Shown: in pieces, positions 395 through 37,099 of the stretch
Layout: each line of letters opens with the position of its first letter
Numbering within the stretch: the stretch's first letter is position 1
Assembly: GCA_026713385.1 (NCBI GenBank)
Contig: JAPOOP010000634.1
Span: forward strand, 1-37,168
DNA from: Candidatus Poribacteria bacterium
GTDB taxonomy: Bacteria > Poribacteria > WGA-4E > WGA-3G
Length of the DNA stretch: 37,168 bases
Direction of reading: 5' to 3'
Notes under the pieces: generated by a model
The model's database searches: none
Told to the model about the DNA's origin: nothing
The model's input: the letters and a program-made list of their open reading frames with translations, nothing else
Translations under genes and position numbers: made by a program

Positions 395-1267
395 TTAAGC
401 CAAGACCTCTGCCACGGTTTCTCCAATAGTGGCGAGGCTATCGGCAACAGTAATCCCAGCATCTTTGAGTGCTCGAATTTTATCAGCGGCAGTGCCTTGT
501 CCACCGGAGATAATTGCCCCAGCGTGTCCCATCCGCTTTCCAGGTGGCGCGGTCTGCCCAGCAATAAAACCGACAACAGGCTTCGTCATTTCATTCTTCA
601 CAAACTGCGCAGCTTTTTCCTCAGCTGTTCCACCGATTTCACCTATTAAGACGACGGCGCGTGTGTCGTCGTCCGCCTCAAAAAGTTTGAGGACATCAAC
701 GAAGTTTGTTCCAATTACCGGATCGCCTCCAATGCCGACACAAGTGGACTGACCAATGCCGAGCCGCTTCAGTTGATATGCTGCTTCGTAGGTTAAGGTT
801 CCACTTCGGGAAACGATCCCAACGTTACCAGGTGTATAGGCAAACTCGGGCATAACGCCGATTTTGCATTCACCGGGTGTGATGACACCAGGACAGTTCG
901 GTCCGATTAATCGGGTTGATTTTCCTTGAAGGAATGCCTTCGCTCTGACCATATCGAGAACAGGAATGTGCTCGGAGATGCAGACAATCAGTTCAACCCC
1001 TGCTTCCGCCGCTTCCATGACAGAATCAGCCGCGTTGAAGTGGGCAGGGACGAAAATCAACGAGGTATCCGCTCCTGTTGCGGTGACCCCTTCTGCTACA
1101 GTGTCATAAACCGGGATGCCATTCACATCAGTCCCACCTCTGCCGGGAACCGCGCCTGCGACAATCTGGGTGCCGTAAGCTGCGCACTGCTCCGTGTGAA
1201 AACGTCCAGAACGACCTGTGATGCCTTGAACGAGGACTTTTGTATTTTTATTAACGAGTATGCTCAT
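395..1267 (-). CDS. sucD: Succinyl-CoA ligase (ADP-forming), alpha subunit
   Basis: This is the alpha subunit of succinyl-CoA synthetase, which makes ATP (or GTP) from succinyl-CoA in the citric acid cycle together with SucC. The protein has 290 residues, the normal length. It shows the CoA-binding N-terminal fold ([15 protein letters not shown]), the [13 protein letters not shown] segment, the [14 protein letters not shown] loop, and [14 protein letters not shown] with the phosphorylated active-site His at residue 248. The ATG at 1267 is preceded by AACCGCAAGG and an A/T-rich spacer, the same ending as the leader repeat described elsewhere. sucD is not next to sucC: proS and pgk lie between them on the same strand, so co-transcription is still possible. 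Confidence 0.97.
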
Positions 1268-1468
1268 ACTTTTAATTTTACCTTGCGGTTAAACAGCGTT
1301 CGTTTAGCAATGGACATGCGTTTCTTAAATCCGTCCTTCAAATGTAAAGCATTCTCGCTGCGAAGCAAAATTATGCCATTTAAGGAGAACCTAATTTCAT
1401 TACGGACTACACGCTGTTCTCAATTTCCCGCCTAAATCCTTTCTCAAACTGTTGCTCCAACCGGAGGA
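1268..1468. other. Intergenic region between proS and sucD with two repeat pieces
   Basis: Directly before sucD lies a leader-repeat end (minus strand, AACCGCAAGG followed by an A/T-rich run). At 1351-1371 lies a 21-bp sequence containing TTCTCGCTGCGAAGCAAAA. It recurs exactly in the opposite orientation at 4336-4356 upstream of pgk. I see no gene or clear terminator here. Confidence 0.6.
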
Positions 1469-2905
1469 TTAATAAGCGCGAGCAAAGACAGCAACGTCTT
1501 TCGCAGACTTACCACAGACAATACACTCACCCTCTCCACCGGGTTGATCCATAGGGAGGCATCGGATAGTCGCTTGTGTTTCTTCTCTTGCCTGATCTTC
1601 ACAGGCGGCATCCCCGCACCAACGTGCGTGTGCGAATCCATCTTCAATAACCTCTTTAAACGCGTCGTAGGTGGTAGGTTTAAAGGTATTCGCATCGCGA
1701 AAGTCTATTGCCCGTTTGAGCATATCTGCTTGAATAGTGTCAAGCATCTGCTTCACCGTCTCGGCAGCATTGTCAATCGGCACAAACATTTTCCCCTCTT
1801 TGCCGGGTATATCGCGTCGGGCAAGGACAACTTGCTGTTTGCTCAAATCACGGGGACCGATCTCTATGCGTAACGGCACGCCTTTGAGTTCCCATTCGTT
1901 AAATCGCCAGCCGGGCGAGTAGTCGTGCCTATCGTCAACGTGGTAGCGGACACTGCCCAAAGTTTCACAGATACCATCAACGGCTTGCATGACTGCTTGC
2001 TTATCGCTATCTTTATTTTTAGGAATGATTGGCACAATGACGAGCTGAGTGGGTGCAAGCCTTGGTGGTAGAACTAACCCTTGGTCGTCTCCGTGGGCCA
2101 TGATAATCGCACCGATCATTCGGGTGCTCACGCCCCAACTGGTCGTCCAACAGTGCTGCTGTTTCTGGTTTGCATCGAGATATTGAATATCGAAAGCCTT
2201 GGCAAAGTTCTGTCCTAAATCGTGTGAAGTGCCAGCTTGGAGGGCGCGTTTATCACCCATCATTGCTTCAATAGTATAGGAGGTTAGCGCGCCGGGAAAC
2301 TTTTCGCTGTCACTCTTACGTCCAGGAATGACAGGTATAGCGGCTTCATTGATCGCAAAATCGGTGTAGATATCCAGGATACGAAGCGTCTCTTCTTCAG
2401 CCTCCTCGTGTGTTGCGTGAGCGGTATGTCCTTCTTGCCAGAAAAATTCCATTGTTCTTAGGAAAAGACGAGGGCGCAATTCCCATCGGACTACGTTTGC
2501 CCATTGATTGATAAGAACTGGTAGATCTCGGTAAGACTGAATCCATTGACTATACATGTAACCGATAATGGTTTCAGATGTCGGTCGTACCACAAGCGGT
2601 TCTTCCAGTTTTTTCCCACCACCGTGCGTGACAACGGCGAGTTCTGGTTTAAATCCCTCAACGTGTTCGGCCTCTTTTTCAATGAAACTCATCGGAATGA
2701 AGAGCGGGAAGGCGGCATTTTGGTGTCCCGTTTCTTTGAACCGGGTATCCAATTGTTCTTTGACGTTTTCCCAGAGCGCGTAGCCGTAAGGACGTACGAC
2801 CATACATCCGCGCACGGGGGCGTAGTCAGCCATCTCCGCTTGGCGGATGACCTGCGTATACCATTTTGCGTAGTCTTCACTACGGGGAACTATTTTATCA
2901 AACAT
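1469..2905 (-). CDS. proS: Prolyl-tRNA synthetase, archaeal/eukaryote-like type
   Basis: This class II synthetase charges tRNA-Pro with proline. At 478 residues it is the short form without the bacterial editing (INS) domain. It has motif 1 around NAAFPLFIPMSFIEKEAEHVEGF, the substrate-binding RPTSETIIGYMYSQWI, motif 2 with RPRLFLRTMEFFWQEGHTAH, and the GTSHDLGQNFAKAF segment. The C-terminal domain has a cysteine cluster (WCGD, AC, RC, ECIVC) and ends in Tyr (FARAY), both typical of ProS type 3. The ATG at 2905 follows a full copy of the leader repeat, whose AAGG lies 12 nt upstream. The gene lies between pgk and sucD on the same strand. A tRNA-Pro(GGG) is 11 kb away. Confidence 0.97.
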   Translation of the reverse strand: MFDKIVPRSEDYAKWYTQVIRQAEMADYAPVRGCMVVRPYGYALWENVKEQLDTRFKETGHQNAAFPLFIPMSFIEKEAEHVEGFKPELAVVTHGGGKKLEEPLVVRPTSETIIGYMYSQWIQSYRDLPVLINQWANVVRWELRPRLFLRTMEFFWQEGHTAHATHEEAEEETLRILDIYTDFAINEAAIPVIPGRKSDSEKFPGALTSYTIEAMMGDKRALQAGTSHDLGQNFAKAFDIQYLDANQKQQHCWTTSWGVSTRMIGAIIMAHGDDQGLVLPPRLAPTQLVIVPIIPKNKDSDKQAVMQAVDGICETLGSVRYHVDDRHDYSPGWRFNEWELKGVPLRIEIGPRDLSKQQVVLARRDIPGKEGKMFVPIDNAAETVKQMLDTIQADMLKRAIDFRDANTFKPTTYDAFKEVIEDGFAHARWCGDAACEDQAREETQATIRCLPMDQPGGEGECIVCGKSAKDVAVFARAY

Positions 2906-3017
2906 TTTTTAATTATTCCTTGCGGTTCGGTCAGGTGAGTTGGATAACTGAAGTGCCTTTCCGTAGACCTAGGGGAAACACCCAAGCAAAAACCCTGCGC
3001 CGATGTTGCAGGCTACG
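2906..3017 (-). repeat. Leader repeat, copy A (5' leader of proS)
   Basis: Read on the minus strand, this stretch starts CGTAGCCTGCAACATCGG, continues with a core containing GTTTTTGCTTGGGTGTTTC, has AGGTCTACG, and ends with ACCGAACCGCAAGG plus an A/T-rich run up to the proS ATG. CGTAGCCT can pair with AGG-T-CTACG, with one bulged base. Nearly the same sequence lies before fumC (35630-35739), and a shorter form lies before the aldolase-like gene (35951-36046). It is probably a structured 5' untranslated region carried by a dispersed element. Confidence 0.75.
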
Positions 3018-3108
3018 CGTTTAGGTTTAACAAAAACCCCTTAACCGACTACCGACTGCTAATTTTTCCTTTCGCACCGCTTCAGGCTCAGTTTTTTGAA
3101 TCGGAGGT

Positions 3109-8151: not shown

Positions 8152-8385
8152 CTACACGTGTTCGTTTAGGTAACTCAGAGCATCTTGAACAGTCTGGATT
8201 TTTTCTGCATCACTGTCTGGGATTTCGATATCGAATTCCTCTTCAAGTGCCATGACCAGTTCAACGGTATCAAGCGAGTCAGCTCCCAAGTCTTCCATAA
8301 AGGAAGCATCTGGCGTGACATTATCTTCTTCAACACCGAGTTGTTTCGCAATAATTTCGATGAGGCGTTCTTGGTTTGTTGCCAT
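8152..8385 (-). CDS. acpP: Acyl carrier protein
   Basis: ACP carries acyl chains on a phosphopantetheine arm. The protein is 77 residues long, acidic and helical, with the attachment site Ser37 in [17 protein letters not shown]. It lies between fabG and fabF as in most type II fatty-acid clusters. The ATG at 8385 has GGAGAT about 17 nt upstream. Farther upstream on the same strand lies CCGCAAGG, part of a rearranged copy of the leader repeat. The 321-nt gap before it leaves room for its own promoter or processing site, which fits the high demand for ACP. Confidence 0.97.
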
Positions 8386-8515
8386 AAGCGTTTCTCTGAT
8401 CTCCTATTTTTTGATTTTCCTTGCGGGTAAGTAACGTAGGTGTTTTTGCTTGGGCGTTTCCCCCAGGGACCTTCACGTGCCTCTGTGTAGAGCCGCCTTC
8501 CACTACGTTTCAGGC
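8386..8515 (-). repeat. Leader repeat, copy D (rearranged, upstream of acpP)
   Basis: On the minus strand it reads CGTAGTGGAAGGCGGCTCTAC, then AGAGGCACGTGAAGGTCC, then the inverted core GAAACGCCCAAGCAAAAAC, then ACCCGCAAGG. The parts are shared with copies A, B, C and E, but the core is flipped. The acpP start is 44 nt after CCGCAAGG, unlike the other copies, which abut the start codon. Confidence 0.55.
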
Positions 8516-8643
8516 TTAGTGTGTTATGAAGGTATAACTTCCGAACTTCACAACTTTACAACTTTACAACTGCCGACGGAAACCGATTGCTGATGGTTAT
8601 GAGGCAATTGGTAAAAGATTACGGACATTGTAAACAGTGCCCT

Positions 8644-18714: not shown

Positions 18715-18849
18715 GTTTTCTAACGATTTCTTCTGAACTGCTGTGTTTTGTTGCTTGGCATTCTAATCGAGGAAAAACTGTTAATAACCCAGAAACGGTT
18801 CAACTTAACCAAAAACTACCCTTTTAATTAATATACAAAAGCGCACAGC

Positions 18850-18930
18850 TTGAACGGAGTAGAAGGCGGACCTATGAAAGGAACGTGAAAATCCAACCCA
18901 CGGACCTTAACCGCAAGGAATAATTAAAAA
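18850..18930 (+). repeat. Leader repeat, copy E (short, upstream of fusA)
   Basis: The stretch has GTAGAAGGCGGACCTATG, GAACGTGAAAATCC and the ending AACCGCAAGG plus an A/T-rich run that abuts the fusA ATG. The ending is the same as in the proS copy, and the middle resembles copies B and D. The CGTAGCCTGC part is missing. Confidence 0.6.
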
Positions 18931-21087
18931 ATGGCACGCGAATATCCGATTGAAAACGTGCGCAATATTGGCATTGCAGCGCACATTGATGCTGGCAAAA
19001 CAACGACGACCGAACGGATTCTTTTCTACACCGGTAAAAAGCATAAGATCGGTGCGGTGGATGATGGTACTGCTGAGATGGATTGGATGGTGCAGGAACG
19101 AGAACGCGGCGTAACGATTACTGCCGCCGCGACGACCTGCTTCTGGCAAGAACATGCAATTCACCTTATTGATACACCCGGACATGTCGATTTCACAGTG
19201 GAAGTGGAACGCTCCTTGCGAGTTTTGGATGGTGCGATTGCCCTTTTTTGCGCTGTCGGCGGGGTCGAGCCACAATCAGAGACGGTTTGGCACCAAGCTG
19301 AACGCTACGAAGTGCCACGCATCGTCTTCGTTAATAAGATGGATAGGGTTGGCGCAAATTTCACTCGCGTTTTGAAAATGATGCAGGAACAGTTAGGTGC
19401 CAACCCACTCCCCCTCCAATTACCGATGGGTGAAGGTGCCGATTTCACTGGTGTTATTGATTTAGTGACCCAGAAGGCGATGCGTTGGGATACAACCGAC
19501 CTCGGGCAGACGTCCGTGGAAACAGAGATTCCACCTGAATTTCAAGATGAAGTGGCACAAGCACGGGAAGCCCTCTATGAGAGTGTTGCTGTCGAAGATG
19601 AGGCATTGCTTGAAAAATACTTGGGGGGTGAAGAAATAACCCATGGCGAGTTACTAACGGTTATCCGCGCAGCTACATTGCAAGGGCACCTCTTTCCGGT
19701 GCTTTGTGGCAGCTCTTTAAAGAATCAAGGCGTTCAACCTCTATTAGATGCGGTAATTGATTTTCTGCCGTCCCCTGTTGACGTTCCTCCTATTGAAGGG
19801 ACTGTGCCACATTCCGCTTCTGGTGGTGCGCGTTCCAAGCACGCGAAAAAGGTATCCGCAGAGCAGAATATAGTGACACGCCTCGCAAATGACAATGCCC
19901 GATTTTCGGCGTTGGCATTTAAAGTGGCAAGCCATCCAACAGTAGACAAACTTGTATACTGTCGTATCTATTCAGGTGTGCTCAAGCGTGGGGAGGTCGT
20001 CTATAACGTCCGTTCCGAAAAACGGGAGCGGATTAACCGTATCCTACAGATGCACGCCAATAAAGAGGCAGTCTGTGATGCCGCTTACGCCGGTGATATT
20101 GTTGCCCTCGTTGGACTCAAGGATACCAAGACCGGAGATACTTTGACCGACCCGAGAGAGCCTATCCTGTTAGCATCCATCACTTTCCCGGATCCGGTTA
20201 TTTCAATTGCCATTGAACCTGAGCGTGCAAGCGATGCTGATGCATTGGAAGAAACGCTCGAAAAATTGATGGATGAGGACCCAACCTTCACTGTGGGAAT
20301 CGACAAAGAAACCGGACAACGGATTATCTCTGGTATGGGTGAACTCCATTTAGAGGTTCTCACAGACCGCATGATACGGGAATTCGGGGTCAATGCTCGG
20401 GTAAGCAAACTGCAGGTAGCGTATCGTGAAACTATCAGTGCGCTTGCAGAGGCTCGCGGGACACATATCCATAAAACAGATGAAGAGGGTATATATGGTG
20501 ATGTACTACTAACGGTTGAGCCGTTAGCGCGTGGTGAAGGATTTCAGTTTGAAGATAACACAGATGAAACTCAGATCCCGCGACAGTACGTCCCGTTCAT
20601 TGAGAAGACATTGGAAGGTGCTATGGGGACAGGTCCCCGCATCGGATATCCGATGCAGGACGTGAAGGTTACACTCACGGGTGGTTCCTACGACCCAACG
20701 GATTCTTCGGAAGTAGCGTTTGAAGCGGCAGCAGTCTTGGCATTTGAAAATGCGACCAGAAAGGCGAATCCTTTGTTGTTAGAACCAATTATGCGGATGC
20801 ATATTACTATTCCTGATGAGCATATTGGCAAAGTCATTGGTGACCTGAATTCACGTCGGGCACAGATTAATGAGAGCACAACCCAAGATGCATCCGATAC
20901 AGGACGCTCGTTGCAATCAACACAAAACGTCATCAATGCTTTTATACCGCTTTCAGAGACGTTTCAGTATACAACACGACTCCGTTCAATGACACAGGGA
21001 CGTGGGGCATTTACATTGGAATTTTCACATTATGAAGTCGTGCCGTCGGCTCTGGCACCGGGCTTGAATCGTGTCAGTTCGGCGTAG
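18931..21087 (+). CDS. fusA: Translation elongation factor G
   Basis: EF-G drives ribosome translocation with GTP. The 718-residue protein has G1 AHIDAGKT (17-24), G2 [11 protein letters not shown]3 DTPGH and G4 NKMD, then domain II (FSALAFKV), domain III ([12 protein letters not shown]), domain IV ([24 protein letters not shown]) and domain V ([14 protein letters not shown]). At the tip of domain IV the usual GSYHDVDSSE reads [10 protein letters not shown], so the conserved His is Asp588. No rpsL, rpsG or tuf is next to it. It may be a second EF-G paralogue instead of the main one. The start follows leader-repeat copy E. It converges on the P1 peptidase gene, six bases away. Confidence 0.92.
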
Positions 21088-23177: not shown

Positions 23178-26100
23178 GTGAACAAAAAGCCCAACCAGAA
23201 CAATAAGAGAATTTCTTTTGCCAAAACGCAGGTTCGGACCCCGCTCCCGAACCTTATAGAGACCCAAAAACTTGCATATGATGCCTTCTTACGACGAAAT
23301 GTCCCACCCAATGAACGTCCGGAAAGTGGCCTCCAAGCGGTGTTTAAGGAAGTATTTCCGATTCGCGACTTTTCGGAGGTTAACAGTCTTGAATTTGTCA
23401 GTTATAGCCTTGGCATACCGAAATATACGCTCCAAGAATGTGTTGCGCGTGGTGTAACATATCAAGTCTCCCTTACTGCCCGTATTATGCTTGTCTTGCG
23501 TGAGGCAGACTCGGACGCAGATGAACCTCATGTTGTAGATATTCGCGAATCTGATGTGTATCTCGGCGAAGTCCCTTTAATGACTGAGAATGGCAGTTTC
23601 ATTGTCAATGGTAGCGAGCGTGTGATCGTGAGTCAGCTGCACCGTTCACCGGGTGTGATTTTTCTTGAAAAATCATTGCCGACGGGGCGGACCACACCGA
23701 CTGCCCAAATTATCCCGTATCGAGGGGCATGGGTTGAATTTGAAATAGACGCTAAAGATCAGATTTACGTCCGCATTGACAAACGTAGAAAGCTACCTGC
23801 TACTGTGCTACTTCGGGCACTCGGTTGGGGGTCAGACGCGGATATCCTGAAACTTTACGCCAAGACGGAACGACTTGTGCTTGCTGGATGGCAGATTACC
23901 CATGTAGAAGGACCAGCAAAGCAACTCAAATCAGGTGATTTGTTAGATGCGGCGGATTTCCGACAAGCCAGTAAGGATTACCCTGACCTTGAAGTAGAGA
24001 GATGTTATCGAGTTACAGAAGTAACTGATAAAGACTGCCCACTGGAAATTGGACAAGAACTTACATATAAGGATCGTACGAACCTTCGCAGAAAATGGAA
24101 AGGCTTTGAAACTGAGCTTTTTCGGCGTGTTGTGGACACCCACAATAGTGGGTGTGAACTCATCCCCGAACAAGTGCTAACGAACTCAGAATACGAAGAG
24201 GCGCGTGCCCGCTACGGCAACAAAGCGTTCACAGCTGAACAGATTGTATCCCAAGATAGCCACGAAAGCGTCGGTAGGGTCTGTGCTGAAGACATTATCA
24301 ACCCAGAAACTGACGAAGTGCTCCTCACAGCGAATACGTTGTTGACTGAAACAGAATTGGAACGCCTCGGCGAGGCTGGCGTTGAGGCGCTCACAGTCCT
24401 GGACGTGGAAGATTGCCAGCACATCCGATTTTTACGGAATACGTTGGAACGCGACCGGCAGGCGGACTATGAGGTCCCTTATGGTGTAAAGGGTGCCTTA
24501 CAAGATGCCGCACTGCTTACGATTTTCCGCACGCTGAGACCCGGAGATCCTGCCGGTATAGAGAACGCTCGTAAACACCTTTCATGGTTGCTCTTTGACG
24601 CGCACCGATACGATTTAGGTGTCGTTGGACGGTACAAACTGAATCGCAAATTCAAAAATATTCCCATTTATGGTGAGCAACCTGAAGAGACTTTGCGCAC
24701 GCTCCGTCCCGAAGATATTGCCGCTACGGTAGATTATCTTCTTAAAGTCCACAATGGGATTGCTCCAAAAGATGATCTCGATCATCTTGGTAATCGCCGC
24801 GTGCGTGTTATCGGTGAACTCCTCGAAAACCAGTTCCGAATGGGTTTATTTCAGATTCGTAGAACCACGCGCGAACGCTTGAGTACCGACAACGATATCG
24901 CGAAGGTCGTCCCGTCTTCACTCATCAACCCGAAACCGCTGATGATGGCACTCCGGGAATTCTTTGGATCGAACCAACTGTCCCAGTTTATGCAACAGAT
25001 TAATCCATTGGATGAATTGACGCATAAGCGTCGTATCTCAGCGATTGGTCCAGGTGGACTTCACCGAGATAGGGCAACAGCAGCTGTTCGAGATGTGCAT
25101 CGAACACACTATGGTCGCGTCTGCCCCTTGGAGACGCCTGAGGGTCCGTCAATCGGTCTCATCGTTTCGTTGGCGTGTTATGGGCGGATAAATCCTTACG
25201 GCTTTATAGAAACTCCGTATCATAAGGTTGAAAAAGGTGCGGAGTTAGGTCCAGTGGAATATCTCACAGCAGATAGTGAGGATACTGCGTACATTGCTGC
25301 AAAGGCGGCTCCGCGCAATGGTGAACAAACTGGAAACGGTGAAGCAACCGTTTCTGAGTATGCGCTACCTGTCCGAAGTGGCGAAGATGTACTGGCGCTT
25401 CCGATGGAAAAAGTGGACTATATCGGAGTTTCCCCGCAGCAGATAGTTGGCATTTCTGCCGCGCTTGTTCCGTTTCTGGAACACGAGGACGCAAACCGTG
25501 CCTTGATGGGTGCGAATCACCAACGTCAAGCTGTGCCGCTTGTCCGTCCAGAAGCACCGCTCGTTGGAACGGGGATGGAAGCACCGGCTGCACTGTATTC
25601 AGGCGCACTCATCACCGCTAAGCGATCCGGTACCGTCACAAGTGTTTCAGCCGAGGAGATTCTCATCTATACTGGCGAAACGCTTCATCATGACAAGGGT
25701 GAAAATACGTTCAGCGAAATGGGCTACGATGTCTACAAACTCCAGACCTTCAAACGGAGTAACAGCGGCACCTGTATCCACCAGCGCCCCATCGTTGCAG
25801 TGGGCGATGAAGTTGAAGCAGGACAAGTTATTGTAGATGGCACATCTACAGAGAATGGTGAACTCGCTCTTGGACGGAATGTGCTGTGTGCTTATATGCC
25901 CTGGGGTGGTCATAACTACGAAGACTCTATTCTGATAAGTGAAACGCTCATCAAGGAAGATACCTTCACTTCCATCCACATTGAGGAATTTGAGGTGGAG
26001 GCACGTGAAACGAAAGTGGGCCCGGAGGAAATCACTCGTGATATCCCGAACGTCAGCGAGCAACGGCTCACACAACTGGATGAAGAGGGTATTATTCGCG

Positions 26101-28373
26101 TTGGGAGCGTTGTGGGTGCAGGAAGCATCCTCGTCGGAAAAATTACACCGAAAGGTGAAAGCGAATATGGTCCAGAAGAAAAACTCCTACGCGCGATCTT
26201 TGGTGAAAAAGTCAAAGAGGTAAGAGATGCCTCGACTTATGTACGCCCCGGAGTTGAGGGGGTCGTCATTGATGTAAAAGTGTTTTCCCGTAAGCCGGAT
26301 GCGACCTCTCGTCGCGGAAGTTGGACACAAGGCGACTCAGGGTTATCAATGGCTGACGATTTGCGATATGAGTCGAAACGCAAGGAGATTGAGGAGACTT
26401 CGCGTGAGCAGATCGCTTCCATCCGCCGCCGAAGAATCGAAGAGATTCGCAATACACTCATCGGATGCGAACTTGCTAATCCGCTTTACACAAAAGAGGC
26501 ATCGGGGTTGAAAACCCCTCCTACAGCTGAGCCCTTTGCGAATGCTGGTGATACTCTGACAGCTGAGGTTTTGGACGCTTATATTTCCGGTTTCACTGCA
26601 GATGAGTACCACTTGGTAACCGAAGATACAAACTCTGAAGCTTTTATCGCTGAAGCATGTTATCGGGTAACGGACGTACCTGAACCAATTCCTACTATTG
26701 TTGTCCACCCTTCCGATTCTTCAGCAGTGCAAGGATACTTTAATGACGTGTGCAAACCGATTTCGGGAAGTGCTGAACCACTCTTGCAGGAAATGGAACT
26801 TAAGGAATCGGGGTTAGAAACCCCTCCTACAGAAAATGCTGATGTTCTGCTTCAGGGTTACGATAACAGTGTGATTGCTATTGCTGTGTGTGAAGATGAG
26901 GACACTGAAAACGGGTATCATGCCGAGCATCTGCTGGAGATGCTTGCTGCAACCGGAGCACGATTTGGTGTATTGGTAACCAACGGCGACTCAGAACCAG
27001 ATAACTGGAATTTCTATGAACTTATAGAGGACAATGTGTTACAACCGTGTGCGCGTTCTGAGTTTGAGATTGGAGTTACCGCACAGCTTGAAACAGTTGG
27101 GTGTCCTGTCGTTGAGACGCAGAGACTGAATGAGGAAGAATGGGTTAACTTCAGTCAGGCTTATCCGGGTTTACAAGCCGAGTTGTCATGGGAAATTAAG
27201 GAAGTCTTCGATCCGGCATGTCCATTGATCGAAGGTCAAGAGCTTTCCGATGCCGATTATCTGCGAGTATCCAGAAATTATCCGGCGCGTCCTATAGCAT
27301 CAGGACAACGGTTGACTGCGGATGAACTGGCATCACTCAATCGGACGGTCAAGGATTTGAAAACCGACTGCGTCTGGTACATTACCGCTGTTTTTGACCC
27401 AGAGTGTAAATTGCCTGTTGGAGAATATGTGTCTGATGCCGACTATCAGCAGGCGCGTAAATCATGTAGTCTGACTTTCTCAGACATCCATGTTACCAAT
27501 CCGGATGCCAGAGAGCATATCCAGCGTGTTGAAGAGATGGCACAAGGCAGGATAACGACTTACATTGAGGAGAAAGAACGGGCACTTCAGCAGTTGGAGA
27601 TGGGTGATGAACTGAAACCAGGCGTCATTAAACGCGTCAAAGTCTATGTCGCAAGCAAGCGTCCGATTTCCGTTGGCGATAAGATGGCAGGTCGTTACGG
27701 CAACAAAGGTGTTGTTGCCAAAATTTTGCCTGTTGAGGATATGCCCTATCTTCCAGATGGTACCCCGGTTGAGTTAGTCCTGAATCCGTTAGGTGTCCCC
27801 TCTCGAATGAACGTCGGTCAAATCTTGGAAATCCACCTCGGATGGGCGTGCCATGAACTCGGCATCCGAGTGGAGTCCCCTGTATTTGATGGTGCAACTG
27901 AGACGGAAATCTTTGAGAAGCTCGGCGAAACTGATCTCCCAGAACGCAGTAAACAAACCGGTAAGAGTATTCTCTTTGATGGTCGGACGGGTGAGGCATT
28001 TGCACAAGAAGTAACGGTGGGATACGTCTATTTCCTCAAGCTGAACCACCTTGTTGCTGATAAGATGCATGCTCGCTCAACGGGACCTTATTCTCTTGTT
28101 ACACAGCAACCGTTGGGTGGCAAGGCACAACACGGGGGTCAACGACTCGGTGAGATGGAGGTCTGGGCATTGGAAGCTTATGGCGCAGCGCATACGCTCC
28201 AAGAAATGCTCACGCTCAAATCAGATGACGTTCTTGGCAGAAGAGAAATCTACGAGTCGGTTGTGAAAGGGTTAAACCCTGAACCGCCCGGTACACCGGA
28301 ATCATTCAAAGTTTTGGTCCGCGAACTCCAAACCCTTGGACTTCATGTATCCCTCGACAAGGATGAAGAATAG
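23178..28373 (+). CDS. rpoB: RNA polymerase beta subunit with two large inserts
   Basis: RpoB forms one half of the polymerase active-site cleft. It starts at GTG 23178 (GGGAG 10 nt upstream) and has 1731 residues, against roughly 1100-1350 in most bacteria. Conserved parts run in order: the N-terminal lobe ([24 protein letters not shown]), the rifampicin-pocket region (595-630), the [10 protein letters not shown] segment, the [17 protein letters not shown] active-site region (about 1500) and the C-terminal clamp anchor ([24 protein letters not shown]). Insert 1 (about 237-357) holds three copies of a 40-residue module. Insert 2 (about 1101-1434) holds three or four more, plus two in-frame REP-like palindromes at 1109-1116 and 1211-1218. 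The rifampicin pocket has Gln606 and Asp612 where E. coli has Asp516 and Ser522. rpoC follows by 115 nt. Confidence 0.98.
   Translation: [1731 protein letters not shown]
23886..24248 (+). repeat. RpoB insert 1: three tandem protein modules
   Basis: Residues about 237-357 contain three modules. Their cores read [40 protein letters not shown] and [20 protein letters not shown]. Each is followed by an acidic helix and a tail ending in an aromatic. The site matches the place where other bacterial RpoB proteins vary in length. The modules resemble those in RpoC 1050-1587. Confidence 0.7.
26502..26525 (+). repeat. REP-like palindrome 1 within rpoB
   Basis: The 24 bases contain GGGGTT-GAA-AACCCC followed by TCCTACA. 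They encode SGLKTPPT. The reverse complement starts TGTAGGAG and ends in CCGA, the layout of Pseudomonas-type REP sequences. A 22/24 identical copy lies at 26808-26831. Confidence 0.75.
26808..26831 (+). repeat. REP-like palindrome 2 within rpoB
   Basis: The sequence has GGGGTT-AGA-AACCCC followed by TCCTACA and encodes SGLETPPT. It differs from palindrome 1 only at two loop positions. Both keep the same orientation and reading frame. Confidence 0.75.
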
Positions 28374-34240: not shown

Positions 34241-35629
34241 CTAACCTAAATTCGGTCGCGTCATATCCCCCGGCAAAACAAGTTCATCAAACGCCTCACC
34301 TGTTAGCACCTCAAGGGCAATAGCTGCCTCGCGCAGTGTACCTCCGTGTTCATGCGCATATTGCGCAACTTTGGCTGCCTTATCATATCCAATATGTGGA
34401 GTCAATGCCGTCACAAGCATCAGTGATTCCGAGAGGTGCCGCTCTATCGTTTCAGTATTCGGCACGATCCCTTCGACACAATTCTCGCGAAATGACTCAC
34501 TCGCATCACCGAGGAGCTGAATAGACTGTAAAGCGTTATGTGCCATCACAGGCATAAACACATTCAGTTGCAATGCGCCATTCGCTCCCGCGAATGCCAA
34601 GGTTGTATCATTTCCCATTACCTGTGCACACACCATCGTAACGGCTTCACACTGTGTTGGGTTCACCTTTCCCGGCATAATCGAACTTCCCGGTTCCATC
34701 TCAGGTAACTGCAATTCACCAAGTCCGCATCGTGGTCCCGAAGCGAGCCATCGGATGTCGTTTGCAATCTTAAATAGGGCAACGGCGAACGTTTTCAAGG
34801 CACCGCTTGCACTTACAACTGCATCACGACACGCAAGTGCTTCAAATGCGTTCGGTGCGCGTTTGAGCTCATAGCCTGTTGTTTCCGATAGCCTCGCCAC
34901 AACCTGTGCTGTATAGTCCGGATGCGTGTTCAGCCCAGTTCCGACAGCTGTTCCACCAATGGGGAGTTCAGTGAGATGCGGCAGCGAGGCAGTAATACGT
35001 TGTTTTGCGGCAGCGAGTTGTTGTGTGTAAGCACTGAATTCCTGTCCGAGTGTGAGTGGCGTCGCATCCATCAAATGTGTTCGACCAATCTTAACAATCT
35101 CAGTGAATGCGGATGCCTTTTCCGCAAAGGCATCATGCAATGCACTCAGGCGCGGTAAGAGGTGCTCTTGGATCTGTCGGACCATTGCCAAATGGATGGC
35201 AGTTGGGAAGACATCGTTTGTGGATTGGGACTTGTTGACGTGATCATTCGGATGGATAGGATCTTTACTGCCCAACTCGCCGCCCAGCATCTCAATTGCA
35301 CGATTCGAGATGACCTCATTGACATTCATATTTGTTTGGGTTCCACTGCCTGTCTGCCAAATACGGAGCGGGAAGTGATCGTCTAATGTTCCGTTGATAA
35401 CTTCTTCTGCTGCGTCGCTGATCGCTTCAGCAAGTCGGCTTTCGAGCAAACCGAGGTCTGCATTGACGTGTGCGACCGCCTGTTTGATCGTACCAAGCGC
35501 CCATATCGCGGCACGTGGCAAGCGTTCTTCACCGATCTTAAAATTTTGGAGCGCACGTTGTGTTTGTGCCCCCCAATATCGGTCGTCTGGGACGTGAAGT
35601 GTCCCCATACTATCTGTTTCCGTTCGCAT
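34241..35629 (-). CDS. fumC: Fumarate hydratase, class II
   Basis: FumC interconverts fumarate and malate in the citric acid cycle and needs no iron-sulfur cluster. The 462-residue protein shows [60 protein letters not shown] (His185) and the superfamily signature [11 protein letters not shown] (314-324). The ATG at 35629 follows leader-repeat copy C, and a strong promoter lies about 180 nt upstream. The gene is convergent with rpoC and divergent from the aldolase-like gene. Confidence 0.97.
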
Positions 35630-35739
35630 TTTTTAATTTTACCTTGCGGTTCGGTGAGGGGGTTGTGTCAATAACGTCCCTTTTCGTAGACCTGCAGAAA
35701 CACCCAAGCAAAAACCCTGCGCCGTTGTTGCAGGCTACG
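35630..35739 (-). repeat. Leader repeat, copy C (5' leader of fumC)
   Basis: On the minus strand it reads CGTAGCCTGCAACAACGG, GCAGGGTTTTTGCTTGGG, TGTTTCTGCAGGTCTACG, a variable part, then ACCGAACCGCAAGG and an A/T-rich run to the ATG. CGTAGCCTGC pairs with GCAGG-T-CTACG, 10 bp with one bulge. The matching arm in copy A is shorter (AGG-T-CTACG). Confidence 0.75.
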
Positions 35740-35808
35740 TTTTTTAATTAAGAAAAGACACCTCGCAGCACACCTCCCTCGACTCCTTTCAATTTTAATT
35801 TTCCTATT

Positions 35809-35837
35809 ATTATACCATAGAAAAACAAAGGTGTCAA
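35809..35837 (-). promoter_or_regulatory. Consensus sigma70 promoter of fumC
   Basis: On the minus strand TTGACA (35837-35832) and TATAAT (35814-35809) are both perfect, with a 17-nt spacer. The message would carry leader-repeat copy C in its 5' untranslated region of about 170 nt. Confidence 0.8.
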
Positions 35838-35876
35838 AAAACAACCGTAACGCGGATCAATTCGTCCACTAAAAAT

Positions 35877-35905
35877 TTGCCATTTCGTTTTAGACATGGT
35901 ATAGT
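35877..35905 (+). promoter_or_regulatory. Sigma70-type promoter of the aldolase-like gene
   Basis: TTGCCA (35877-35882) and TATAGT (35900-35905) are spaced by 17 nt. The predicted leader, about 135 nt, includes copy B of the leader repeat. Confidence 0.6.
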
Positions 35906-35950
35906 TAAAGGATAGGCAAGTCGTTCAGGTGAAAATAATAGACGAAACCG

Positions 35951-36046
35951 GTAGCCTGCAACAACGGCGCAGGCGGATCTACGCAGAGGCACCTCAGTCC
36001 TCAAACCTGGCTAACCGAACCGCAAGGAATAATTAAAAAATAAAAA
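35951..36046 (+). repeat. Leader repeat, copy B (5' leader of the aldolase-like gene)
   Basis: It begins GTAGCCTGCAACAACGGCGC and lacks the TTTTTGCTTGGG core. It continues GGCGGATCTACGCAGAGGC and ends ACCGAACCGCAAGG plus an A/T-rich run. GTAGCCTGC can pair with GCAGG and the later CTAC, so the closing stem is kept although the core is lost. Confidence 0.7.
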
Positions 36047-37099
36047 ATGGATTCAACATTAACCAATCCGTATCTGACAAACACTTTAACAGCACCACCA
36101 CCGCAAAGTTATCGCTACGAGCACTGGCGAGAACGGGGGTATCATCCCGATCTGTGTCCGATTTCACCGGACAGCGAATGTGGGATGCTGATCGGACAGA
36201 TGGGCTGGGTCGGCGCGCATGCGCACGCTCACGAATATTTGTGGGCGACTGCTGGCAACATGGGCGCAGTTTTAACTGAAACGGTTCAGGATGCCTGTCT
36301 TATCCCTTACAATACCTCGCCACGTTACCAATTGCCACCCCAGATTATTGTTAAAGGGTTAGCTGGACGACATGTCCTGCTCACAAAGTCGGGTTCACGT
36401 CTGGATATGATTGGTATTGAACATCCGGCTCTCAATTTAACGCTCATTGAAGTTGAACCTGATGGTGTACATTATCGTATGCGCTTCGGCACGCCGGACC
36501 AAGCAACCTTAGATTTAAATCGCGACGGTATCACGCCGCCAGCACCGACAAGTGAGATGTTCCACTACCTTCTTATTTTTGAGCAGTTAGAAGAACTCGG
36601 GTTTAATACGCTTGTGCACTTGCAACCGAAGTTTTTGAATCTAATTTCTCGTACAGAACACGGTGCGCCTGATCGATTTTACAACTTCCTGAGAGGATAT
36701 GAACCGGAAACGCCTATTATATACGATGAATCCAGTGGTATTGGGTTCGTGGAAGAGAAAGCACCTGGCATCCCCGAATTATCTTATGAGAGTTTACGGC
36801 TTTTCCAGAATGGTGGGAATGCGGAGCGGCATATTCTTTATTGGGTAGGACACGGAACGTTTTCGCGCGGTAAAGATCTCCTTGATGCTTACAAACACGC
36901 AGAATATTTTGAATCCGCCGCGCGGATGGCATGGGAAGCAAATCAACAACGTGTTGATGCCCAAGCCTATACGGAGGAGATCGTCAGTTGTATCTTACGC
37001 GAATTTAACGCGAATCGCGAGGCATCTGCCCAACCAAATACTGGCTTTGAGGATGTCGATACACCAGTGCAATCTGACAACGTCTATAATTACCCGTAA
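36047..37099 (+). CDS. Class II aldolase/adducin-domain-like protein
   Basis: The 350-residue protein has a long N-terminal part with MGWVGAHAHAHEYLWATAGNMGAVLTE (about 50-78) and a C-terminal half like class II aldolases: MFHYLLIFEQLEELGFNTLVHLQPKFLNLIS, then HILYWVGHGTFSRGKDLLDAYKHAEYFESAARM. The class II zinc site normally uses H-x-H in the first segment and a His in the second. Here the first reads HLQ, so one ligand is replaced by Gln, while the GHG His is present. Catalytic activity is therefore uncertain. I do not know the substrate. ATG 36047 follows leader-repeat copy B. Confidence 0.65.
   Translation: MDSTLTNPYLTNTLTAPPPQSYRYEHWRERGYHPDLCPISPDSECGMLIGQMGWVGAHAHAHEYLWATAGNMGAVLTETVQDACLIPYNTSPRYQLPPQIIVKGLAGRHVLLTKSGSRLDMIGIEHPALNLTLIEVEPDGVHYRMRFGTPDQATLDLNRDGITPPAPTSEMFHYLLIFEQLEELGFNTLVHLQPKFLNLISRTEHGAPDRFYNFLRGYEPETPIIYDESSGIGFVEEKAPGIPELSYESLRLFQNGGNAERHILYWVGHGTFSRGKDLLDAYKHAEYFESAARMAWEANQQRVDAQAYTEEIVSCILREFNANREASAQPNTGFEDVDTPVQSDNVYNYP

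Follow-up and report, generated by a model that had tools for sequence, protein, structure and literature searches.

Sequence comparison indicates that a family of short interspersed repeats, belonging to one genus of sponge-associated Poribacteria, probably serves its host genes as a translation-initiation leader. Six copies lie in the window (the whole 37,168-nt stretch of DNA analysed here), in front of fumC, proS, acpP, fusA, sucD and a class II aldolase gene (Table 1). The best reading of the family is that of a spreading translation-initiation leader rather than a ligand-sensing riboregulator. The first-pass annotation of this DNA had described, at fumC, the aldolase-like gene and proS, a dispersed and sense-oriented 5′ leader that brings its own start context to unrelated genes. 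These three copies are present, three more were found in the window, and the description is supported by the position of the copies, their counts and the patchy occupation of sites in sister species.

Anatomy and distribution of the leader

A full copy measures ~105 nt and comprises, from 5′ to 3′, an A-rich edge, a small hairpin, a core of ~48 nt and a tail of constant sequence, CCGCAAGG-WAWAATTAAAAA, which includes a Shine-Dalgarno (SD) sequence. Similarity between copies starts ~13 nt 5′ of the hairpin (TAAAACCAAAAC-C-GTAG), with none further upstream, and GTAG stands at the hairpin foot (G 73%, T 70%, A 100%, G 96%). The core occurs as subtype A (...CCTGACCGAACCGCAAGG) or as subtype B, which is one base shorter (...CGTCATTTAACCGCAAGG or CGTTCCTCCGCAAGG). 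Many copies contain an insert of ~24 nt (GTTTTTGCTTGGGTGTTTC...), which may point either way, or have other hairpins within the loop.

The first-pass annotation was right about the shared start block, about a CTACG further on and about the end, ACCGAACCGCAAGG followed by an A/T run and the ATG. Its proposal that CGTAG/CTACG pairing is kept did not hold, as this outer stem is paired in 71% of cells, just as many as expected from shuffling, and behaves like shuffled columns in the covariation test. The inner hairpin GCCY...RGGC does covary (54 cells with changes on both sides vs 16 ± 7 in shuffled alignments; score 0.50 vs 0.25), and the claim of a structured leader stands for this part.

Copies in the window were called with a covariance model built from 29 copies and a whole-element HMM. 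The acpP leader is matched by the covariance model in two pieces (8406-8515) because of the insert inside it, and acpP retains its own GGAG ribosome-binding site between the leader tail and the ATG. The sucD leader has a different hairpin at its 5′ end, and the fusA site is empty in five sister species. Promoter-like sites lie upstream of the leader, and not within it, at fumC (TTGACA-17-TATAAT) and the aldolase gene, as had been claimed; a promoter was also looked for upstream of the proS leader, and none was found. The aldolase-family protein resembles rhamnulose-1-phosphate aldolase, yet scores under the cutoff of that family.

Table 1. Leader copies, their parts and the genes that follow them, in window coordinates.
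Feature	Position	Strand	Support
Leader of the class II aldolase-family gene, full short form	35938..36046	+	cmsearch 104.6 bits, model match 35938-36041
Parts of the aldolase-gene leader: GTAG hairpin, core, tail; ATG 36047, 27 nt from CCGCAAGG start		+	sequence
Covarying hairpin GCCTGC-AACAACGGC-GCAGGC, aldolase-gene copy	35954..35974	+	position from sequence; covariation in 50 copies
CCGCAAGG with Shine-Dalgarno AAGG(A), then A/T-rich spacer up to the start codon	36020..36027	+	sequence
fumC leader, long form, with ~24-nt insert GTTTTTGCTTGGGTGTTTCTGCAGG; ATG at 20 nt past CCGCAAGG	35628..35751	-	
proS leader, long form; ATG at 20 nt past CCGCAAGG	2904..3029	-	
acpP leader with mini-insert GGGGGAAACGCCCAAGCAAAAAC in opposite orientation	8406..8524	-	
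Diverged copy 5′ of fusA; ATG at 20 nt past CCGCAAGG	18832..18932	+	
sucD leader, core and tail; ATG at 21 nt past CCGCAAGG	~1267 to 1337-1423	-	
Promoter-like TTGACA-17-TATAAT, 5′ of fumC leader, outside the element	35809..35837	-	consensus match only
fumC (class II fumarate hydratase)	34241..35629	-	TIGR00979 above cutoff
proS	1469..2905	-	TIGR00408 above cutoff
fusA (EF-G)	18931..21087	+	TIGR00484 above cutoff
sucD (succinate-CoA ligase alpha)	395..1267	-	TIGR01019 above cutoff
acpP	8152..8385	-	TIGR00517 above cutoff
Class II aldolase/adducin-family protein gene	36047..37099	+	Pfam Aldolase_II match

Other repeats were met along with the leader. A mini-insert of ~22 nt (GGGGAAACACCCAAGCAAAAAC / GTTTTTGCTTGGGTGTTTCCCC) occurs in leaders at window positions 2968-2993, 8442-8467 and 35691-35712, at loci L023 and L021 and in many others, in varied places and both orientations, as though itself mobile. 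Hairpins such as ATTATGCCTTAAATGGCATAATT and CATTCTCACTGCGAAGCAGG are nested in leader-hairpin loops (L026:14460 region, L062:1809 region, L289, L206). Another palindromic repeat, AGGCATCGGGGTTGAAAACCCCTCCTACAG, is present at 26497-26526 and 26803-26832 of the window; the two copies are 90% identical, stand 306 nt apart and sit in a long open reading frame (23178-28373), apparently in coding sequence.

A search of the source genome with the tail CCGCAAGGWAWAATTAAAA gave 351 matches at up to 2 mismatches, against 1 for the reversed pattern. Among the matches listed, which are genome contigs, all records are Candidatus Poribacteria. The tail pattern had no match in the viral contigs searched, and spread by viruses was rejected on this ground. 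Across 85 Poribacteria genomes, counted with up to one mismatch, copy numbers are 144-450 in nine species of one genus, 0-83 in the rest of that genus and 0-4 in other genera of the phylum. With the covariance model, at least 150 copies were found in the source genome and at least 150 in the closed sister chromosome G010; three further closed chromosomes of the genus hold 62, 9 and 1, a sister genus 1 and another family 0. The genomes are metagenome assemblies, except for closed chromosomes such as G010. Copy number thus varies from 0 to ~450 among sister species, which points to a recent expansion in one clade.

Position at gene starts and site occupation in sister species

The leader is tied to start codons. 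In 147 of 296 distinct copies a start codon (134 ATG, 10 TTG, 3 GTG) lies 19-21 nt from the start of CCGCAAGG, compared with 2.2% at random positions, and a further 42 are tandem units ahead of another copy; these figures refer to fetched contigs that were picked for holding copies, and to mechanical open-reading-frame starts. By the whole-element HMM, 160 of 288 copies have a start no more than 2 nt away from the model ATG, against 10 of 288 in its antisense mirror control. On the closed G010 chromosome, 20 of the best 40 model matches have their start at 19-21 nt and 2 have one nearby; another 5 are in-frame fusions and some 7 are tandem units. The antisense copies or copies far from start codons that the first-pass annotation had named as speaking for a plain mobile repeat are thus mostly not what the family presents. 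About 1/4 to 1/3 of copies have no recognisable adjoining gene start, and the adjacency to starts could in part arise if copies at other places were selectively lost. At L063 (period 142), L098 (period 120) and L019:5092-5335 (period ~121), a single gene is preceded by a tandem array of three to seven leaders.

Orthologous upstream regions of 23 element-bearing genes were compared across five sister species. Presence of the element at the same gene is patchy, and species in which the site is empty have unrelated leaders, with divergence starting at or just 5′ of the start codon. At genes 0, 10, 13 and 18, whose flanks can be aligned closely, homology reaches -11 to -20 from the ATG in empty species and ends further upstream in filled ones. 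Gene 10 encodes a 1214-aa SbcC-like protein, a name drawn from its own N-terminus and from the gene before it. In the empty species the upstream frame appears to extend up to its start; in the filled species the element stands in place of the last 11 nt and the upstream frame stops early. For fumC the element is present in 6 of 8 close species, and the other orthologues read, G033 and G026 among them, have ordinary leaders. The leaders of outgroup fumC genes also use AAAGG and ~11 A/T-rich bases, the same geometry as in the element.

Two other kinds of leader also end at the start codon. A second family (GAATTAACC.AAAACC-hairpin-CCAGGAGnCCATARnTTAAAAA), much rarer, occupies orthologous genes (L261/L153, which is fumC in G033, and L189, L222, L267, L051, L084, L090). 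Heptamer-like repeat leaders (CTGATAACTGAAAACCGACAACCCTTAAAAAAT) end at the ATG in sister species (L182, L200, L210, L211) and are sometimes joined to the tail of the element (L250, L234).

Fused copies and replaced native starts

In 26 non-redundant copies no start codon follows the tail, and the gene continues in frame through CCG-CAA-GGN-AAA-ATT-AAA, which would give the fused proteins a shared peptide (...LTEPQGKIK). A Pfam search with the element-encoded peptide returned no match, and the idea that it is a known Pfam domain was rejected. By their family motifs we take the fused N-termini to include ProC (IKNLGVIGVGKMG), TrpB (IKKLPDATGHFGQFGGRYVPET), Era (IKNFKSGYVSIIGAPNVGKST) and CoaBC (IKNIILGVTGGIA); several signal peptides are also among them.

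An element frame open over 33 nt or more is present in 26/26 fused copies vs 105/147 ordinary ones (p = 4e-4), and an in-frame ATG, GTG or TTG at -36..-18 occurs in 17/26 vs 17/147 (p = 2e-8). From this enrichment, start codons within the element appear to be selected once the native one is lost. In type A copies, the excess of synonymous differences is 1.33-fold in the element frame, compared with 0.92 and 0.84 for the other two, and stops number 11 vs 32 expected. The possibility that the element is the 3′ end of a longer gene was rejected, since upstream frames of at least 300 nt are no commoner in its frame.

The proC gene, followed through 30 loci with one proC match per genome, presents the whole range of arrangements. 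Twelve loci are without a full element, 11 of them with the native GTG and one with only a tail-like leader and an ATG; four carry the element and then an ATG; and in 14 the element is fused and the native start is lost (locus L316, with an ESQG variant, was counted by hand as element). The fused ProC would begin MSETYLNEPQGIIK. A canonical start lies within the element in 11 of the 14 fused loci (e.g. MSETYLNEPQGIIKN-LGVIG), and for the three without ATG, GTG or TTG in the open frame, AUU or CUG starts or sequence errors are assumed. These are L321, L330 and L332; the open frame likewise has no such codon at L114:6426 (era-like) and L138 (-853), and at all five the same explanations are possible. 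AUU as a general start of fused copies is opposed by the enrichment of NTG codons within the element, but these three proC loci would be compatible with it.

Origin of the family and comparison with known systems

Upstream of the ATG by 12 nt, the tail presents AAGG(A), and the source genome contains the canonical 16S 3′ end GGATCACCTCCTTT in one copy, so that ribosomes presumably use this site. New copies would settle at gene starts with their 3′ end fixed, replacing the ~10-20 nt at the end of the native leader, and translation would therefore now proceed from the ribosome-binding site of the element. Where the element joins the gene within its first codons, the native start would be lost, the core reading frame fused to the protein and the start codon located in the element. 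Spread by ectopic recombination, or by one-sided copying with the tail or A-tract as its anchor, is favoured by the constant 3′ end, the A-tract junctions on either side of the ATG, the duplications of the tail alone and the tandem units, and the element would be kept because it supplies initiation. More tentatively, it may be a selfish ‘mobile gene head’, copied in a 3′-anchored and 5′-truncating manner, which pays its way by supplying initiation and sometimes deletes the native start and tags the N-terminus with a standard peptide. Were that less certain reading true, the ‘mobile gene head’ might constitute a new class of bacterial selfish element.

The truncation of copies bears on the mode of copying. 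Among 317 HMM hits, 94 have a complete 3′ and a truncated 5′ end and 6 the reverse; in source-genome contigs that were not picked by the tail, the numbers are 26 vs 3. This asymmetry is not a detection effect, because 178 of 191 full copies are still found after in-silico removal of the tail. The 5′ breakpoints are recurrent among truncated copies. Such one-sided truncation would be explained by a SINE-like retroposon that is copied from RNA by way of an A-rich 3′ tail, and the A-rich tail at an A-tract target agrees with this origin. RVT_1 is absent, however, from the closed G010 chromosome (~390 copies) and from G000, G023, G030 and G033; as several high-copy genomes lack it, an origin by reverse transcriptase was rejected. 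Target-site duplication was not found either when the 5′ flank was compared with the gene start (longest common substring 4.41, and 4.41 also after permutation), and a retroposon is very unlikely. The same missing duplication speaks against an ordinary mobile palindromic repeat, either a GTAG-type REP moved by a RAYT or a MITE, whose bias to gene starts would come from purging elsewhere. The (G)TAG that begins the hairpin in most copies, as it does in REPs (PMC3733652), and the patchy, high-copy and tandem occurrence would suit it. The source genome (G000, 89% complete) is nevertheless without Y1 transposase, and a census of Y1_Tnp (RAYT) in 38 genomes has no visible relation to copy number, for which a REP/RAYT origin was rejected. 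In addition, the two ends of the element, TAAAACCAAAAC... and ...AATTAAAAA, do not form inverted repeats, copies are truncated from one side, and their distance to the start codon is constant to within ~1 nt, a precision that purging alone does not produce. REPs are also described mostly downstream of coding regions in PMC3733652, and a repeat of this ordinary kind is fairly unlikely.

The first-pass annotation had favoured a riboregulator placing its genes under common control, that is, a cis-regulatory RNA which folds and senses a ligand, a protein such as CsrA or a small RNA. Such a role would agree with the covarying hairpin, the sense orientation 5′ of genes and the GGA motifs of the core. 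The covariation, however, is limited to a 6-bp hairpin that lies far from the ribosome-binding site, and a scan of the remaining core in type A copies gave no helix that stands out. The SD site is as accessible in the leaders as in their shuffles, so there is no sign of sequestration of the ribosome-binding site, which was rejected; the AUG is slightly more open than in shuffled leaders (p = 0.016). No functional theme is visible among 90 downstream genes, which matched 109 different Pfam families, the same gene is patchily filled between sister species, and an Rfam scan of the window returned one tRNA only, with no curated family for the leader. Common control is unproven, because exposure of the ribosome-binding site is like that of shuffles and the genes have no common theme, and we consider a regulatory RNA unlikely. 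It is extremely improbable that there is no mobile repeat at all and that the leaders are alike by convergence on a ribosome-binding-site convention of the clade. The outgroup fumC leaders, with their AAAGG and ~11 A/T-rich bases, could be read in that way, but the likeness reaches ~100 nt upstream, hairpin and core included, sister species lacking the element have unrelated leaders at the same gene, and copy number within one genus goes from 0 to as many as 450.

The leader family makes the evolution of gene starts directly visible, as sister species of ~90% identity carry unrelated leaders that switch at the ATG of the same gene. For proC, stages with a native start, a swapped ribosome-binding site and a lost start coexist in one genus. 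Pieces of gene control, and even protein beginnings, would be shuffled between unrelated genes by the family, with several hundred copies per genome at most. Predicted gene starts in element-bearing genomes may often be wrong, and the family offers a natural library for initiation studies.

Bacterial mobile repeats can carry promoters, terminators or binding sites. A repeat that brings a translation start with it and keeps a fixed spacing to start codons has no precedent in the literature searched, and the openly accessible literature, subscription papers aside, gave no report of such an element in Poribacteria. Rickettsia palindromic elements (RPEs), GTAG REPs and MITEs are not described, in the available parts of their sources, as both carrying a ribosome-binding site and being locked to start codons.

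The leader resembles cis-regulatory RNA leaders such as riboswitches in being structured, in sense and directly 5′ of genes, and differs from them by its minimal structure, its mobile distribution and the lack of switching evidence or common function. With SINE-type retroposons it shares a constant 3′ end and variable 5′ truncation, but neither their reverse transcriptase nor their target-site duplication. MITEs and ERIC are non-autonomous, interspersed, transcribed with their neighbours and able to make open-reading-frame fusions (PMC2229807); the leader family is likewise interspersed and forms such fusions, whereas it has no terminal inverted repeats or target-site duplication and one of its ends is fixed by the start codon. 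GTAG REPs are numerous, patchily distributed among relatives and built on a small hairpin with (G)TAG at its foot (PMC3733652), and all three traits recur here; unlike these repeats, which lie mostly downstream of genes, the leader is ~105 nt long, has a constant 3′ tail, stands at gene starts and, in the source genome, comes without RAYT. RPEs are in-frame repeats that put a conserved peptide into unrelated genes (PMC10969869), and the 26 fused copies reported here similarly combine a short palindromic repeat, in-frame fusion and a conserved peptide. In contrast to the insertion within existing reading frames that is the main mode of RPEs, the main mode of the leader is a start 19-21 nt past the tail motif; most copies precede the start codon and presumably supply the ribosome-binding site. 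The fused copies replace the native start; the phylum differs as well, and so, it appears, does the sequence.
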